This document shows, piece after piece, positions 173 through 32,955 of a stretch of DNA of 33,139 nt. The notes under the pieces are model-generated. The model saw nothing but the letters and a program-made list of their open reading frames with translations, made no database searches and was not told the origin of the DNA. The stretch is from Bacteroidota bacterium (GTDB lineage: Bacteria > Bacteroidota > Bacteroidia > JAADEI01 > JALVCQ01), in assembly GCA_027009805.1 (NCBI GenBank), contig JALVCQ010000086.1:1-33139 (forward strand), given 5' to 3'. How positions within the stretch are numbered: position 1 is the first letter of the stretch; each line of letters opens with the position of its first letter. The translations under genes were made by a program, and so were the position numbers.

Positions 173-1021
173 ATGCGGGTGCGCCGCCTTTCTCGGGAGC
201 AGTGGGCCGAGCGGGCGTGGTCGGTGGCGGCCACCTATTTTCATACGCCGGAGTGGTATGAGGTCTGGGCGCGCTGGCAGGGATGGACGGTATTTGCGTT
301 GGAATTTGGCTCGGACGGGTGGATGCCCGTGGCGGTGCGGGGACGCCGGGCGATGAGCTCGCCGCCGGGCACCTATGGCGGCCCGGTGACGTATTCCACC
401 GGACGGTGGGAGCGGCTGTGGGAAGCGGCCCGCCGTTGGGCACGGCGGGAAGGCCTGACCTTGCAGATGCTGACGATCCAGCGCCCGCCGTGGCCGGCGC
501 AACGCTGGGAAACCTACGTGGCGGTGCTGCCGCCGGCGGCCGAGCGGATTCCGCGGGAATGGCGGGCCACGCATCGAAATTATTGGCGGCGCACCTATCG
601 CGGGGAGATGACGGTGAAAGCCCTCACGGTGGACAACCTCGATGACTATCTGGCGCTTTATACCATAAATTATGAGCGGTGGGAAGAAAAACGCCTTCGG
701 TATGATGGGGCGTTTTTTGAGATGCTGCTGGGCCTGCGCGGCGTAAACGGCTTGCTGGCCTATCAGGACGGTGCGGTGGTGGCGGGCATCGTCGCGTTTG
801 CGCATCCGCATTCGATGTTTCACTGGCATGCGTTGCGCCATCCCGACCGAAAGGACGCCCTGGGCGCTTATCGGGTGCATTACGAGATGATGGCGCGGGC
901 GGTGGCGCTGGGCATCCATCGTTATGATATGTTGCCGGCACCGTTGCAGCGGGCCGAGCAGATAGCCTTTTACAAGCGGGGGTTTGGAGCGGTGCCGGCG
1001 TCGGTGTGGTGGACCGCGTGA
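173..1021 (+). CDS. FemAB/GNAT-like acyltransferase family protein
   Basis: 282-aa ORF, ATG start 11 nt after the clpX-like stop; fold-like pattern 'FHTPEWYEVWARWQGW', 'GLLAYQDGAVVAGIVAFAHPHSMFHWHALRHPDRKDALGAYRVHYEMMARAVALGIHRYDM' typical of FemAB/GNAT-like proteins. Confidence 0.55.
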   Translation: MRVRRLSREQWAERAWSVAATYFHTPEWYEVWARWQGWTVFALEFGSDGWMPVAVRGRRAMSSPPGTYGGPVTYSTGRWERLWEAARRWARREGLTLQMLTIQRPPWPAQRWETYVAVLPPAAERIPREWRATHRNYWRRTYRGEMTVKALTVDNLDDYLALYTINYERWEEKRLRYDGAFFEMLLGLRGVNGLLAYQDGAVVAGIVAFAHPHSMFHWHALRHPDRKDALGAYRVHYEMMARAVALGIHRYDMLPAPLQRAEQIAFYKRGFGAVPASVWWTA

Positions 1022-1026
1022 GGGAG

Positions 1027-1058
1027 CCGTAGGGGGCAGCGTCGCTGTGCCCCTACGG
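1027..1058. repeat. Imperfect palindrome CCGTAGGGGGCAGCGTCGCTGTGCCCCTACGG
   Basis: Arms CCGTAGGGG...CCCCTACGG read directly; same GTAGGGG...CCCCTAC family as the palindrome at 1237-1266. Confidence 0.7.
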
Positions 1059-1071
1059 AATATCGAACGCC

Positions 1072-1149
1072 GAACACCGATTTTTGATTTAAGGTATTAT
1101 TTTAATTTATCATTTTTGTTCTTAAATCGGCGTTCGTTCATCGGTGTTC
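1072..1149. repeat. 78-nt AT-rich inverted-repeat element, copy A
   Basis: 10-bp perfect terminal inverted repeat GAACACCGAT/ATCGGTGTTC plus inner inverted repeat GATTTAAG/CTTAAATC; 71/78 identical to 32497-32574 by manual alignment. Confidence 0.85.
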
Positions 1150-1187
1150 TGCAATTGGCATCAGTCTCTTAACCCCACCCCTGGCCT

Positions 1188-1217
1188 CCTCCCCGCTTGC
1201 GGGGAGGGGAGTTTTTT
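1188..1217 (+). terminator. Hairpin followed by T-tract (terminator-like)
   Basis: CCTCCCCGC-TT-GCGGGGAGG stem followed by GGAGTTTTTT; no gene immediately upstream, so it may only be part of the repeat mosaic. Confidence 0.4.
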
Positions 1218-1236: not shown

Positions 1237-1266
1237 CGTAGGGGCACGGCATGCCGTGCCCCTACG
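1237..1266. repeat. Perfect 30-bp palindrome CGTAGGGGCACGGCATGCCGTGCCCCTACG
   Basis: Exact self-reverse-complement, read directly. Confidence 0.9.
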
Positions 1267-1270
1267 TCGC

Positions 1271-1534
1271 GTGAGGGGCCCGAAGGGCGCCGAGCCGTAA
1301 GGCAAGGCGGACCGCCCTTCGACAAGCTCAGGGACCGCCGCCCGTGGGGAACACCCGCTGGCTGAGCGAAGTCGAAGCCACGCGGGTGGCGCAGGGTGTG
1401 GTGTGGGATGGTGGGCGGGCCGAGGCGGACAGCCGAGCCCGCAGGGGCCCGACCCGAAGGCGCCGACCGCGCCCGCTGCCTGAGCTTGTCGAAGGCAACG
1501 GGCGAAAGGCGCCGGAGGGACACGCCCCAAGAAT
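1271..1534. repeat. GC-rich mosaic repeat, copy A
   Basis: nt 1271-1424 differ from 32691-32844 at 5 of 154 positions by manual alignment; similarity continues more loosely to about 1530. Confidence 0.85.
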
Positions 1535-4982: not shown

Positions 4983-5599
4983 CCGGGCTGATCGGGAAGA
5001 AAATCGGAATGACTTCGTTCGTCAACGAAGAAGGCAAAAACGTCCCCTGCACGCTGTTGGAGCTGGGCCCTTGTGTGGTGACCCAGGTCAAGACCGCCGA
5101 AAGCGACGGCTACGAAGCGGTGCAGATCGCCTATGAACCCATCAAAGAAAGCCGCACGACCAAACCGTTGCTGGGCCATTTCAAAAAGGCCGGTGTGAAG
5201 CCGCATCGTATTCTGCATGAGATTCGCGGGCTGGAAAAAGAAGTGAAGCCGGGCGATGCGCTGACCATCACCGACATCTTCGAAGAAGGCGAGTTTGTGG
5301 ATGTGGTGGGCCGTTCAAAAGGGAAAGGCTTTCAGGGGGTGGTCAAGCGCCATGGCTTTGCGGGTGTGGGCGGCCGCACCCACGGCCAACACAACCGGGA
5401 GCGGGCGCCGGGGTCGCTGGGCGCCTCGTCGTTTCCTTCCCGCGTGTTCAAAGGCAAGCGGATGGCAGGGCGCATGGGCAATGAGCGCGTTAAAGTCTTT
5501 AACCTTCAGGTGGTCAAAATCATTCCCGAAGAAAACATCATGGTCGTGAAAGGGGCGGTGCCCGGCCCGCGCAACGGCTACGTATTGGTCCTTAAATAA
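4979..5599 (+). CDS. rplC: 50S ribosomal protein L3
   Basis: [26 protein letters not shown]...[17 protein letters not shown] overlap with rpsJ. Confidence 0.97.
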
Positions 5600-5607
5600 T
5601 TGCCGTC

Positions 5608-6234
5608 ATGAAAGCGGAAGTGATAGACATTACCACCGGACAGCCCACGGGCGAAAGCATCGAGCTGAACGATGCAGTGTTCGCGGGCCCCGTCCGGAAA
5701 CATCTTCTGTGGCGGGATGTGAAACGCATCCTGAACAACCGCCGCCAGGGAACCCACAAAACGAAAGAACGGGGCGAAGTGGCTTACTCGACCCGTAAAT
5801 TGTTTGCTCAGAAAGGACGGGGCATGGCCCGCCGCGGCAGCCGAAAAGCACCGCCGTTGCGGGGCGCCGGCACCATCTTCGGGCCCCGACCCCGGTCTTA
5901 TGAGGAAAAAATCAACAAAAAAGAAAAACGGGCCGCCCGCCGCAGCGCCCTCGCCGCCCTGATGCAACAGGGCCGCATTATCGTCGTGGACGACTTTACG
6001 ATGGACACGCCTAAGACGAAGGCGTTCCTGAAAATGTGGAAAAACCTGGAGCTGCCCACCCGAAAAGCCGCCCTTGTCAAAGACGACACCGACCCCAACC
6101 TCATCGCCGCCGGACGCAACGTGCCCAACGTGGCATTTCATCGGGCCGATTGCCTCAACACCTACCGGATCCTCCATGCCGGCACGCTGGTGATCACGCG
6201 CAAAGCCGCACAATTCATGAATGAAAATTTCTAA
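5608..6234 (+). CDS. rplD: 50S ribosomal protein L4
   Basis: RQGTHKTKERGEVAYSTRKLFAQKGRGMARRGSRKAPPLRGAGTIFGPRPRSY. Confidence 0.97.
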   Translation: MKAEVIDITTGQPTGESIELNDAVFAGPVRKHLLWRDVKRILNNRRQGTHKTKERGEVAYSTRKLFAQKGRGMARRGSRKAPPLRGAGTIFGPRPRSYEEKINKKEKRAARRSALAALMQQGRIIVVDDFTMDTPKTKAFLKMWKNLELPTRKAALVKDDTDPNLIAAGRNVPNVAFHRADCLNTYRILHAGTLVITRKAAQFMNENF

Positions 6235-6237
6235 GCC

Positions 6238-6531
6238 ATGAAGGGAGTTATCAAACGGCCGATCATCACGGAGAAAGCCACCCAGCTGTCGGAGGTGCTG
6301 AATCAATATTCCTTCGTGGTCGATAAGAAGGCGACCAAGGAAGAAATCAAGCGGGAAATCGAGCAGCTTTACGGCGTCAAGGTCGTCAAAGTGCGCACCC
6401 ACATTATGCCGAAAAAGCCGAAATATCGATATACGCGGACCGCTATTATCCGCGGCGCCAAACCCTCCTTCAAAAAAGCGATCGTGACCCTGGCCGAAGG
6501 GAACGAAATCGACTTTTACAAAAACATTTAA
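6238..6531 (+). CDS. rplW: 50S ribosomal protein L23
   Basis: IKRPIITEKATQLSE...YSFVVDKKATKEEIKREIEQLYGVKVVKVRT. Confidence 0.96.
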   Translation: MKGVIKRPIITEKATQLSEVLNQYSFVVDKKATKEEIKREIEQLYGVKVVKVRTHIMPKKPKYRYTRTAIIRGAKPSFKKAIVTLAEGNEIDFYKNI

Positions 6532-6541
6532 CGAGTAGGTC

Positions 6542-7369
6542 ATGCCGTTGAAACGACTTAAACCGATCACGCCGGGTTTGCGTGGCACCGTGTTGGTGGA
6601 CTATTCCCACCTGTCGAAGGTGGCGCCCGAGCGTTCGTTGCTCAAGCCCCTCAAGCAGAAAGCCGGCCGGAACAATCAGGGACGGCGCACCATGCGGTAT
6701 CGGGGCGGCGGCCATAAGCGCTACTATCGCATTATCGACTTTAAGCGGGACAAGGTCGGCATTCCGGGTGTGGTCAAGACGCTGGAATACGACCCCAACC
6801 GGACGGCGTTTATTGCGCTGGTGGCCTACAAAGACGGCGAAAAGCGCTACATCATCGCGCCGCAGGGCCTGGAAGTGGGCCAGACGGTGCTGAGCGGCCC
6901 CGAGGCGCCGGTGCAGCCGGGCAACACCCGCAAACTGAAAGAAATGCCGGTGGGGGTGACGATTCACAACGTCGAGTTGAACCCCGGCGCAGGCGGCGTG
7001 ATGGTTCGCGGCGCAGGCACCTCGGCGCAGCTGGTGGCGAAAGAGGGACGTTATGTGGTCATCAAGATGCCTTCCGGGGAAGTCCGGCGGGTGTTGGCGG
7101 AATGTCGGGCCACATTTGGAAGCGTCTCGAATCCCGACAACCGCCTGGTGAAAATCGGCAAAGCCGGACGCAACCGCTGGAAAGGACGCCGACCGCGAAC
7201 CCGCGGGGTGGCCATGAATCCCGTCGATCATCCCATGGGCGGCGGCGAAGGAAAGGCCAGCGGCGGACATCCCCGCTCCCGGACAGGCCTCTATGCCAAA
7301 GGAAAGAAAACACGCAAAAAGAATAAGCCCTCCTCAAAACTCATCATCGAGCGGCGTAAAAAACGATAG
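6542..7369 (+). CDS. rplB: 50S ribosomal protein L2
   Basis: [30 protein letters not shown]...[22 protein letters not shown]. Confidence 0.98.
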
Positions 7370-7371
7370 TC

Positions 7372-7641
7372 ATGGCACGTTCTCTCAAAAAAGGCCCCTA
7401 CGTCTCATGGAAGCTGCTGCGTAAAATCCAGCGGCTCAATGAAAGCGGAAAAAAGGAGACCATTAAAACATGGTCCCGTCGCTCCATGATCACCCCCGAC
7501 TTTGTGGGGCACACCATCGCAGTGCATAACGGGAAAAGCTTTATTCCCATTTACATTACCGAAAACATGGTGGGGCACCGCCTGGGGGAATTTGCGCCCA
7601 CGCGCATCTTCCGCGGTCATCCCGTCAAAAAAGGCAAATAA
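7372..7641 (+). CDS. rpsS: 30S ribosomal protein S19
   Basis: [16 protein letters not shown]...[46 protein letters not shown]. Confidence 0.97.
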
Positions 7642-7644
7642 CCC

Positions 7645-8040
7645 ATGGAAGCGCGAGCCATTCTGAAAAACAGCCCGTTCCCCGAACGGAAAATGCGCCT
7701 GCTGGCGGATGTGGTCCGAAACAAGCCGGTGGCCGAAGCGCTCAATATTCTGTCGCTGCATAAAAAGAAGCTCTATGCTTCCTATCTCTATCGGCTCATC
7801 CGTTCGGCGGTGGCCAATTGGGAGGGTAAATACGGAGAAGACGCGCCGGTGGATATCGACGATCTCTATATCAAAGAAATTCGTGTGGATAAGGGCCGGG
7901 TGTTGAAACGCTGGCAAACGGCGCCGCGGGGCATGCCCCGACCTATCCGGAAGCGATTCAGCCACATCACCGTGGTGGTGGCCCCCATGACGCCGGTGCC
8001 CGTGAGTGAAGAAACCGAAAACACCGAAACTGAAGAATAA
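7645..8040 (+). CDS. rplV: 50S ribosomal protein L22
   Basis: SPFPERKMRLLADVVRNKPVAEALNIL... plus position between rpsS and rpsC. Confidence 0.95.
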   Translation: MEARAILKNSPFPERKMRLLADVVRNKPVAEALNILSLHKKKLYASYLYRLIRSAVANWEGKYGEDAPVDIDDLYIKEIRVDKGRVLKRWQTAPRGMPRPIRKRFSHITVVVAPMTPVPVSEETENTETEE

Positions 8041-8045
8041 CGACT

Positions 8046-8756
8046 ATGGGACAGAAGGTTAACCCCATCGCCAATCGCCTCGGCTACATCCGGGGATGGG
8101 AGTCGCTGTGGTATGCAAAAGACGCCTCGGACTATGCCGATCGGGTCATCGAAGACCAAAAAATCCGTGACTACGTCCATAAGCGGTTCCCCCGCGGCGC
8201 GTTTGCATATATCATCATCGAACGCACCCGCAAGCGCCTCCACATCTATTTGCACTCGGCCCGGGTGGGCGTGGTCCTTGGAAAGAAAGGCGCCGAAATC
8301 GACAAGCTGACGCAGGAACTGAAAAAGCTGACCAAGACCGAAAAACTGGACATCGATGTCATCGAGGTGAAAAACCCTTACACCTCGGCCAAATTGATTG
8401 CCGAAAACATCGCCCAGCAGCTGGAAGCCCGCGTGGCACACCGGCGGGCGATGAAAATGGCCATCAACGACGCAATGCGCACCCCCGGCGTGCACGGCAT
8501 CAAAGTCCGCTGCTCGGGGCGGCTGGGCGGAAGCGAAATGGCCCGCACCGATGAATATAAAGACGGTCGGGTACCTTTGCACACCTTTCGGGCCGATGTC
8601 GATTTCTATATCGCCGAGGCCAAAACCATTTACGGCGTGATCGGCGTGAAGGTGTGGCTGTTTAAGGGCGAAGTCATCGGACGTCGGGAACTGGACCTTA
8701 ACCTCGGTGCCCGCAAAGCTTCGGGAGGAGGGCGCCGTCGGCAACGCCGCCGATAA
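8046..8756 (+). CDS. rpsC: 30S ribosomal protein S3
   Basis: MGQKVNPIANRLGYIRGWESLWYA...KH-domain VGVVLGKKGAEIDKL. Confidence 0.97.
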   Translation: MGQKVNPIANRLGYIRGWESLWYAKDASDYADRVIEDQKIRDYVHKRFPRGAFAYIIIERTRKRLHIYLHSARVGVVLGKKGAEIDKLTQELKKLTKTEKLDIDVIEVKNPYTSAKLIAENIAQQLEARVAHRRAMKMAINDAMRTPGVHGIKVRCSGRLGGSEMARTDEYKDGRVPLHTFRADVDFYIAEAKTIYGVIGVKVWLFKGEVIGRRELDLNLGARKASGGGRRRQRRR

Positions 8757-8778
8757 ACGCATTAAAGATTGTTGAACG

Positions 8779-9204
8779 ATGTTGCAACCACGCAAGACCA
8801 AATATCGGAAACGTCAGAAAGGGCGTATTAAAGGGCTTGCCCAACGCGGCGCCGAAGTCTCCTTCGGAACCTTTGGCATTAAAGCCCTTCAACCGGCTTT
8901 TATCTCCGCCAAACAGATCGAGGCGGCCCGTGTGGCCATCACCCGTCACCTGCGCCGGGCCGGGAAAGTGTGGATCCGAATCTTTCCCGACTATCCGGTG
9001 ACCCGCAAGCCGCTGGAAGTGCGGATGGGAAAAGGGAAGGGGAATCCGGAGTTCTGGGCGGCCCGGGTGAAGCCCGGAACGGTGCTGTTTGAGGTCGATG
9101 GCGTGAGCGAAGAAGCCGCCCGACGAGCCCTCTGGCTGGGCGCCCAAAAGCTGCCCGTGAAAACCAAGTTGGTGTTTCGACGCGACTATCTTCAAAAACA
9201 ATAG
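8779..9204 (+). CDS. rplP: 50S ribosomal protein L16
   Basis: [39 protein letters not shown]. Confidence 0.97.
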
Positions 9205-32463: not shown

Positions 32464-32496
32464 TGCACTGCTCGCCTCTACTAAATAGCAAACATC

Positions 32497-32574
32497 GAAC
32501 ACCGATTTTTGGTTTAAGATTTTATTCTAATTTATTCTTTTTGTTCTTAAATCAGCGTTCGTTCATCGGTGTTC
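32497..32574. repeat. 78-nt AT-rich inverted-repeat element, copy B
   Basis: Same length and orientation as 1072-1149 with identical 10-bp termini; 7 mismatches, 5 of them in the central spacer. Confidence 0.85.
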
Positions 32575-32577
32575 TGC

Positions 32578-32620
32578 CATCCCCCGCTGGCTGAGCGAAG
32601 TCGAAGCCACGCGGGGGATG
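32578..32620. repeat. Hairpin CATCCCCCGC-TGGCTGAGCGAAGTCGAAGCCAC-GCGGGGGATG
   Basis: 10-bp perfect outer arms plus inner TGGCT/AGCCA; shares the CTGAGCGAAGTCGAAG core with 1352-1388 and 32772-32808. Confidence 0.8.
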
Positions 32621-32690
32621 GGGGGCCTTCCGCACCCTTCGACTACGCTCAGGGAGCGGAAGGGGGATGTTCAGGGAGCGGAAGGTTTGC

Positions 32691-32955
32691 GTGAGGGGCC
32701 CGGAGGGCGCCGAGCCGTCAGGCGAGGCGGACCGCCCTTCGACAAGCTCAGGGACCGCCGCCCGTGGGGAACACTCGCTGGCTGAGCGCAGTCGAAGCCA
32801 CGCGGGTGGCGCAGGGTGTGGTGTGGGATGGTGGGCGGGCCGAGCGAACAGCGAGCCCGCAGGGGCCCGACCCGAAGGCGCCCCACCGCGCCCGCTGCCT
32901 GAGCGGAGCCGAAGGCAGGCGGGCGGCCGGGCGCCGAAGGGACACGCCCAAAAGA
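32691..32955. repeat. GC-rich mosaic repeat, copy B
   Basis: nt 32691-32844 match 1271-1424 at 149/154 positions; looser similarity continues to about 32950. Confidence 0.85.

Follow-up and report, generated by a model that had tools for sequence, protein, structure and literature searches.

A lineage-specific family of modular, hairpin-rich intergenic elements holding REP-like repeats in a Bacteroidota genome

Here, we show that a GC-rich block found near both ends of a 33,139-nucleotide stretch of Bacteroidota DNA (contig C86 of the assembly, hereafter the window) belongs to a dispersed, lineage-specific family, of which about 75 left arms are found in the genome. The copies share a constant frame, bounded by a left arm (L) and a right arm (R), with a string of short hairpins inside it; at defined slots and at hairpin tips, some copies have a REP and others none. 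Whole blocks recur between genes at dozens of unrelated places, in either orientation. On balance, we consider it probable that each block is one copy of an intergenic, non-coding and non-autonomous mosaic family that acts via folded single-stranded DNA. Overall, the family works like REP/BIME-type mobile DNA.

Two blocks and the family they belong to

Positions 1271-1424 and 32691-32844 (copies A and B) are identical at 149 of 154 positions without gaps, in the same order and orientation, as the initial annotation had reported, and both are preceded by an AT-rich module on the same strand. Weaker similarity extends to 1534 and 32954 (94 of 114 aligned columns), and the two AT modules are about 91% identical. 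The linkers between modules, 114 nt in A and 113 nt in B, align no better than shuffled sequence (score -21.5 against a shuffled mean of -19.2). That these linkers differ, with palindromes in A and CTGAGC..GTCGAAG hairpins in B, had been correctly seen: linker A consists of module C and palindrome P, and linker B of hairpin H and a REP-bearing hairpin. That they are of similar length is coincidental, as the two belong to different types of junction. The features of the window are collected in Table 1.

Table 1. Positions of repeat modules and hairpins in the window
Feature	Position	Strand	Remark
Left arm (L) of AT-type element, copy A, GCGTGAGGGAGCC	1016..1028	+	Its TGA (1019-1021) is the stop codon of the upstream FemAB/GNAT-like ORF
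Degenerate GTAG-type palindrome, CGTAGGGGGCAGCG..CCCCTACG	1028..1057	not assigned	
AT-rich core module, copy A, imperfect inverted repeat	1062..1156	+	At least 41 copies genome-wide
Module C (CCCCACCCCTGGCCTCCTCCCCGCTTGCGGGGAGG..)	1170..1213	+	Separate dispersed repeat in linker A
Palindrome P, GTAG-tagged REP	1237..1266	not assigned	Perfect palindromic core GTAGGGGCACGGCATGCCGTGCCCCTAC at 1238-1265
GC-core element, copy A, left arm to right arm	1269..1527	+	Full element around the annotated block
Hairpin H1	1289..1308	+	GCC-GA-GCC-GTAA-GGC-AA-GGC in copy A; family consensus has GA on both sides
REP R1 (CCCTTCGACAAGCTCAGGG) in slot 1	1315..1333	-	
REP hairpin H, CCCGCTGGCTGAGC-GAA-GTCGAAGCCACGCGGG	1354..1386	+	GNA loop at 1368-1370
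Hairpin H2, empty form	1417..1440	+	Loop without REP
Hairpin H3, filled form	1452..1519	+	REP CCTGAGCTTGTCGAAGG at tip (1479-1495)
Right arm (R), GGGACACGCCCCAA	1517..1530	+	Family consensus GGGGCACGCCCAAA
AT-rich core module, copy B	32496..32580	+	Left arm missing
Hairpin H in linker B	32583..32615	+	Identical to H within copy A block (1354-1386)
Hairpin CCTTCCGC..GCGGAAGG in linker B	32626..32663	+	REP CCCTTCGACTACGCTCAGGG at tip
GC-core element, copy B	32689..32949	+	

The source genome is a 2.01-Mb assembly of 232 contigs. A 21-nt left-arm probe, allowing up to 3 mismatches, finds 77 places genome-wide against 0 for its reversed control, and a 21-mer from the GC-block core finds 41 against 9 at the same tolerance. 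The counts of element anatomy given here come from about 281 kb fetched around the matches and are lower bounds. With about 75 copies on dozens of contigs and with unrelated linkers and flanks, the pair is, as first argued, no simple recent duplication. The claim that it brackets a core gene cluster did not hold up: about 75 arms in 2.01 Mb amount to one per 26 kb, so two are expected in 33 kb, and a functional meaning of the pair's position around the ribosomal cluster was rejected on this copy density. Copies are often cut by or close to contig ends (the contig ends 190 nt beyond copy B), hence the presence of one at each end of the window.

The common frame runs from a left arm GCGTGAGGGGCCCG.., in the form (T)YGCGTGAGGGGCCCGRMGGGC, to a right arm ..GGGGCACGCCCAAA followed by A-rich DNA. 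Inside it lies an AT-rich core or a GC-rich multi-hairpin core, and some copies have both. AT-type elements read L-GGGGAAT-AT core-CAGGCAGAAGG-R and are about 143 nt long; GC-type elements read L-H1-slot-H2-H3-R and range from 123 to 343 nt, the slot being taken by a REP pair (R1 + H) or else by at least one GTAG palindrome. An AT module is followed by a GC core in 12 composites (0.23 expected), all 12 in the same order and on the same strand. A recurrent junction, AT-GCCAT-CCCCCGCTGGCTGAGC.., is common to about 10 AT copies, which argues that the AT-GC arrangement was copied as a unit, and copy A represents a second junction type with modules C and P. Among the copies counted, 29 of 41 AT modules have no GC partner and 53 of 65 GC cores no AT partner. 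Thus, of the annotated "modular, co-propagating mosaic", the modular part stands, with at least five modules in a common outer frame, and the co-propagating part survives only for the composites and their recurrent junction. The modules mostly occur without each other, an outcome that the annotation itself had listed as counting against its reading, and the fixed spacing it had proposed to check for is absent, the AT-GC gap varying from 13 to 218 nt.

Two composites, C13:262-741 and C25:41-528, have shared flanks and thus reflect the duplication of a segment, or strain variation within the assembly, and not independent insertions. Module C forms a C-rich/G-rich stem (CCCCACCCC..CTCCCCGCTTGCGGGGAGGGG). 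Weak matches to it occur in a relative from the same order (G003), so it may be older than the frame.

All copies are intergenic and never lie within a predicted gene. Relative to neighbouring genes, the element (E) is found 24 times as >E>, 13 times as <E>, 11 times as >E< and 11 times as <E<. On one side it typically lies 7-25 nt past a stop codon, and on the other 40-120 nt ahead of a gene start, these distances being approximate as the genes were called from a simple codon-usage score. Promoter-like TAnnTTTG motifs follow the elements. The family is specific to the source lineage, and the REP ingredient is class-wide. Among the genomes of 84,980 other species, the left arm gave only 2 single matches, in unrelated taxa, which we take as chance; it had 0 matches in viral contigs, and the composite had no match among plasmids and phages.

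Hairpin structure, loop tips and slots

The stems and tips of H1 and H3 are conserved as structure while their sequence changes. The arms vary among copies yet stay complementary (GCC/GGC, GGC/GCC, GC/GC, GGCCC/GGGCC, GGCGGC/GCCGCC), and in 2000 trials in which arms were re-paired between copies the observed complementarity was never reached, whether all copies or only distinct sequences were used. For distinct sequences only, H1 scored 60 against a re-paired mean of 47 and maximum of 57, and H3 scored 59 against a mean of 33 and maximum of 54. Most stems are broken by G.A mismatches, with CGAG on both stem strands in 63 elements and a few departures, copy A for example. Global DNA folding of copy A was compared with shuffles: the AT element gave z -4.2 and the GC block z -2.2, a moderate gain only; the structure argument rests on local covariation.

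The tips follow rules of their own. H1 ends in GNNA in 51 of 63 cases, mostly closed by C-G (C-GNNA-G), and H3 in GNNA with some GNA triloops. When the GNNA tips of both are pooled, 36 of 78 have a pyrimidine at position 3, which departs from the GNRA rule of RNA; loops of the GNA and GNNA type on a G-C stem are published as extraordinarily stable DNA mini-hairpin loops (PMC4686876). The REP core CYGAGC-NNN-GYCGAAG shows the same preference, its NNN being GNA in 117 of 125 cases in the roughly 281 kb fetched from the source genome. In the class as a whole, the REP motif is found in 93 of 198 genomes, with GNA at 132 of the 150 places listed in genomes other than the source genome; the reversed control has 3 among the matches listed.

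REPs occupy defined positions that are filled in some copies and empty in others. In slot 1 the REP CCCTTCGACAAGCTCAG is present in 32 elements and absent in 29, and at the H2 tip it is present in 12 and absent in 57, with clean boundaries. H3 may end in a tetraloop or triloop, in a REP, or in a GTAGGGGCGATGCATGCATCGCCC palindrome. R1 runs in the opposite direction to H and the REP of H3, so that orientations alternate, and there is no regular tandem array. Near-direct repeats (GGACCG; GAACAG/GAACCG) flank the REP in slots 1 and 2, and as they are too alike between sites they are no proof of duplication. The filled and empty forms are what a stepwise insertion of hairpins into hairpins would leave; recombination between repeats could produce them too.

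The resident RAYT gene and the GTAG palindromes

The initial annotation had suggested looking for a Y1/RAYT transposase, and the genome does have one intact REP-associated tyrosine transposase (RAYT) gene (C135:4723-5418, minus strand), along with a decayed second one (C135:9046-9573). The intact gene exceeds the cut-off for PF01797 (28 bits) and has HIH and QYIAENP motifs, read by eye, for the HUH and catalytic Tyr; comparison with PDB gave no match. Its match to NF047646 (E=3.4e-15, 56 bits) falls below the cut-off of 80, probably due to an in-frame insert that splits the domain. In the coding sequence (region C135 4720-5607), the insert lies between the HUH and Tyr motifs and is built from halves of GTAG-type palindromes together with a tandem NQRGTHT repeat; being palindrome-derived and in frame, it indicates that a REP became part of the transposase protein. 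The gene sits between a PLD/SNF2-helicase-like gene (DrmD/HKD+Snf2 profiles; C135 1105-4515) and a type IIG restriction-methylase-like gene (5421-9032), neighbours that suggest a putative defence-like locus.

Module P is a GTAG-preceded palindrome, GTAGGGGC..GCCCCTAC, whose main subtype has 25 palindromic copies, to which related subtypes add more; a looser pattern finds 84+94 against 13+17 for its control. P-like palindromes at C135 4698, 4938 and 5123 lie inside the intact RAYT gene and directly downstream of it, which makes module P a reasonable RAYT substrate. It is the only module that shows both the GTAG palindrome and the cognate RAYT by which we defined a RAYT-type REP. Enzymes of the TnpA-REP kind work on a single strand of hairpin DNA, in which they recognise mismatches in the stem or loops (PMC8266576). 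The GTAG palindromes in the linkers would most likely have been moved in trans by the resident RAYT.

Contig C135, which carries the RAYT gene, has no L, R, AT or H module, and modules H and R1 have no GTAG ahead of CTGAGC..GTCGAAG. One complete genome from the same class (G043) has CTGAGC-NNN-GTCGAAG at 213 places and another genome (G013) has it at 21, and neither has a RAYT or Y1_Tnp match. Since the H-type REP is this abundant in G043 without a detectable RAYT, RAYT cannot be the general engine, and another mechanism must serve the H-type REP at least in these two genomes. Searching the literature for this REP motif as such gave no result.

How the elements may form and spread

In light of these features, how might such a mosaic arise? 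From the hairpins, slots and dispersal we infer single-stranded-DNA action, stepwise nesting and movement. Replication or transcription would expose one strand, which would fold into a row of ultra-stable DNA mini-hairpins with GNA/GNNA tips and G.A-interrupted stems. Small REP hairpins would be copied into the slots and tips of older hairpins, so that elements grow by nesting, and finished composites would then be copied elsewhere as units. The GTAG palindromes would be moved in trans by the RAYT of the genome, and the frame and the CTGAGC-GNA-GTCGAAG REPs presumably by another enzyme. A wider proposal, which we offer tentatively and with no great expectation, is that this is a self-nesting class of mobile DNA between genes, in which selection would act on the single-stranded DNA mini-hairpin as its unit: unrelated modules would converge on GNA/GNNA tips and G.A-mismatched stems, REPs would insert preferentially in the slots and tips of other hairpins, and in some genomes REPs would spread without any RAYT, through a different enzyme.

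The same hairpins could instead function as RNA, in a 3' UTR stabiliser, terminator or attenuator transcribed from the neighbouring gene. Strong covariation, the position just past stop codons with a distance kept from gene starts, and the description of REPs elsewhere as transcribed RNA elements (PMC3733652) are all consistent with this. We nevertheless think it unlikely, as both orientations relative to genes are common, the tips are GNNA or GNA and not GNRA or UNCG, the right arm is followed by A with no T-run, and an Rfam covariance-model scan of the window at gathering score gave 0 matches. It is rather improbable, too, that the resident RAYT mobilises the whole composite, frame included, as a giant REPIN/BIME. 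An intact and a decayed RAYT gene, GTAG palindromes in many composites and the proposal that RAYTs build BIMEs (PMC2817692) point that way, but GTAG is missing from the ends of the frame, the P module is absent from AT-only elements and from many with a GC core, and no frame lies near the RAYT gene.

A classical MITE, with terminal inverted repeats GCGTG/CACGC and a DDE transposase, would account for the short complementary ends, small size, intergenic position and A-rich right flank. We hold this to be very unlikely: the terminal complementarity is 5 bp only, size and interior vary with the modules, and a target-site duplication of the whole element, our criterion for a MITE, was seen in only 2 of 70 cases and is lacking in the other 68. 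Finally, the 97% identity of A and B over 154 nt might suggest a simple recent segmental duplication or gene conversion bracketing the ribosomal/ATP-synthase cluster. To this we give almost no credence; it is already refuted by the copy number, and the unrelated linkers and flanks and a density of two copies per 33 kb, the genome average, also stand against it.

Returning to the mosaic of folded single-stranded DNA, its nearest known counterparts are REP/BIME and REPIN + RAYT (TnpA-REP) systems, with which it shares many-copy short intergenic hairpins, stem mismatches, composites with REPs in both orientations, GTAG palindromes and the presence of a RAYT gene. Tips of the form GC-GNA-GC are likewise seen in published REPs of Citrobacter, Enterobacter and Klebsiella, and module H is similar to the REP core of Coxiella, GGCTGAGCTTGCGAAGCC (table in PMC2817692). 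Unlike in REP/BIME, a constant non-REP frame here holds the REPs, which sit in the tips and slots of other hairpins and not in regular tandem alternation, and the commonest REP lacks a GTAG tag and is found as well in genomes where no RAYT is detectable. BOX of Streptococcus pneumoniae (boxA-boxB-boxC; PMC3049150) is likewise a modular intergenic composite of up to a few hundred bp with a fixed module order and a predicted fold, a likeness at the level of architecture only; its sequences are different, and the present elements have two alternative cores with interchangeable REP cargo, not a tandem array of one middle module, and tips that fit DNA mini-hairpins. REP dimers in larger palindromes (A. 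variabilis GTAG-15, T. roseum GTAG-23, H. neapolitanus CGTC-1) and the mosaic intergenic regions of Neisseria also show REPs within longer palindromes or alternating with repeats of other kinds (PMC3733652), whereas here several kinds of module occupy several defined slots of one conserved frame, filled and empty in the same genome.

The variation within this one genome gives a handle on how REP-like repeats spread and on whether it is their DNA or their RNA that matters, with loop rules that fit DNA mini-hairpins, covarying stems and filled and empty slots in one frame. In addition, the class-wide CTGAGC-GNA-GTCGAAG REP, with its 213 places in a complete genome without a recognisable RAYT, allows a concrete search for another mobilising activity.
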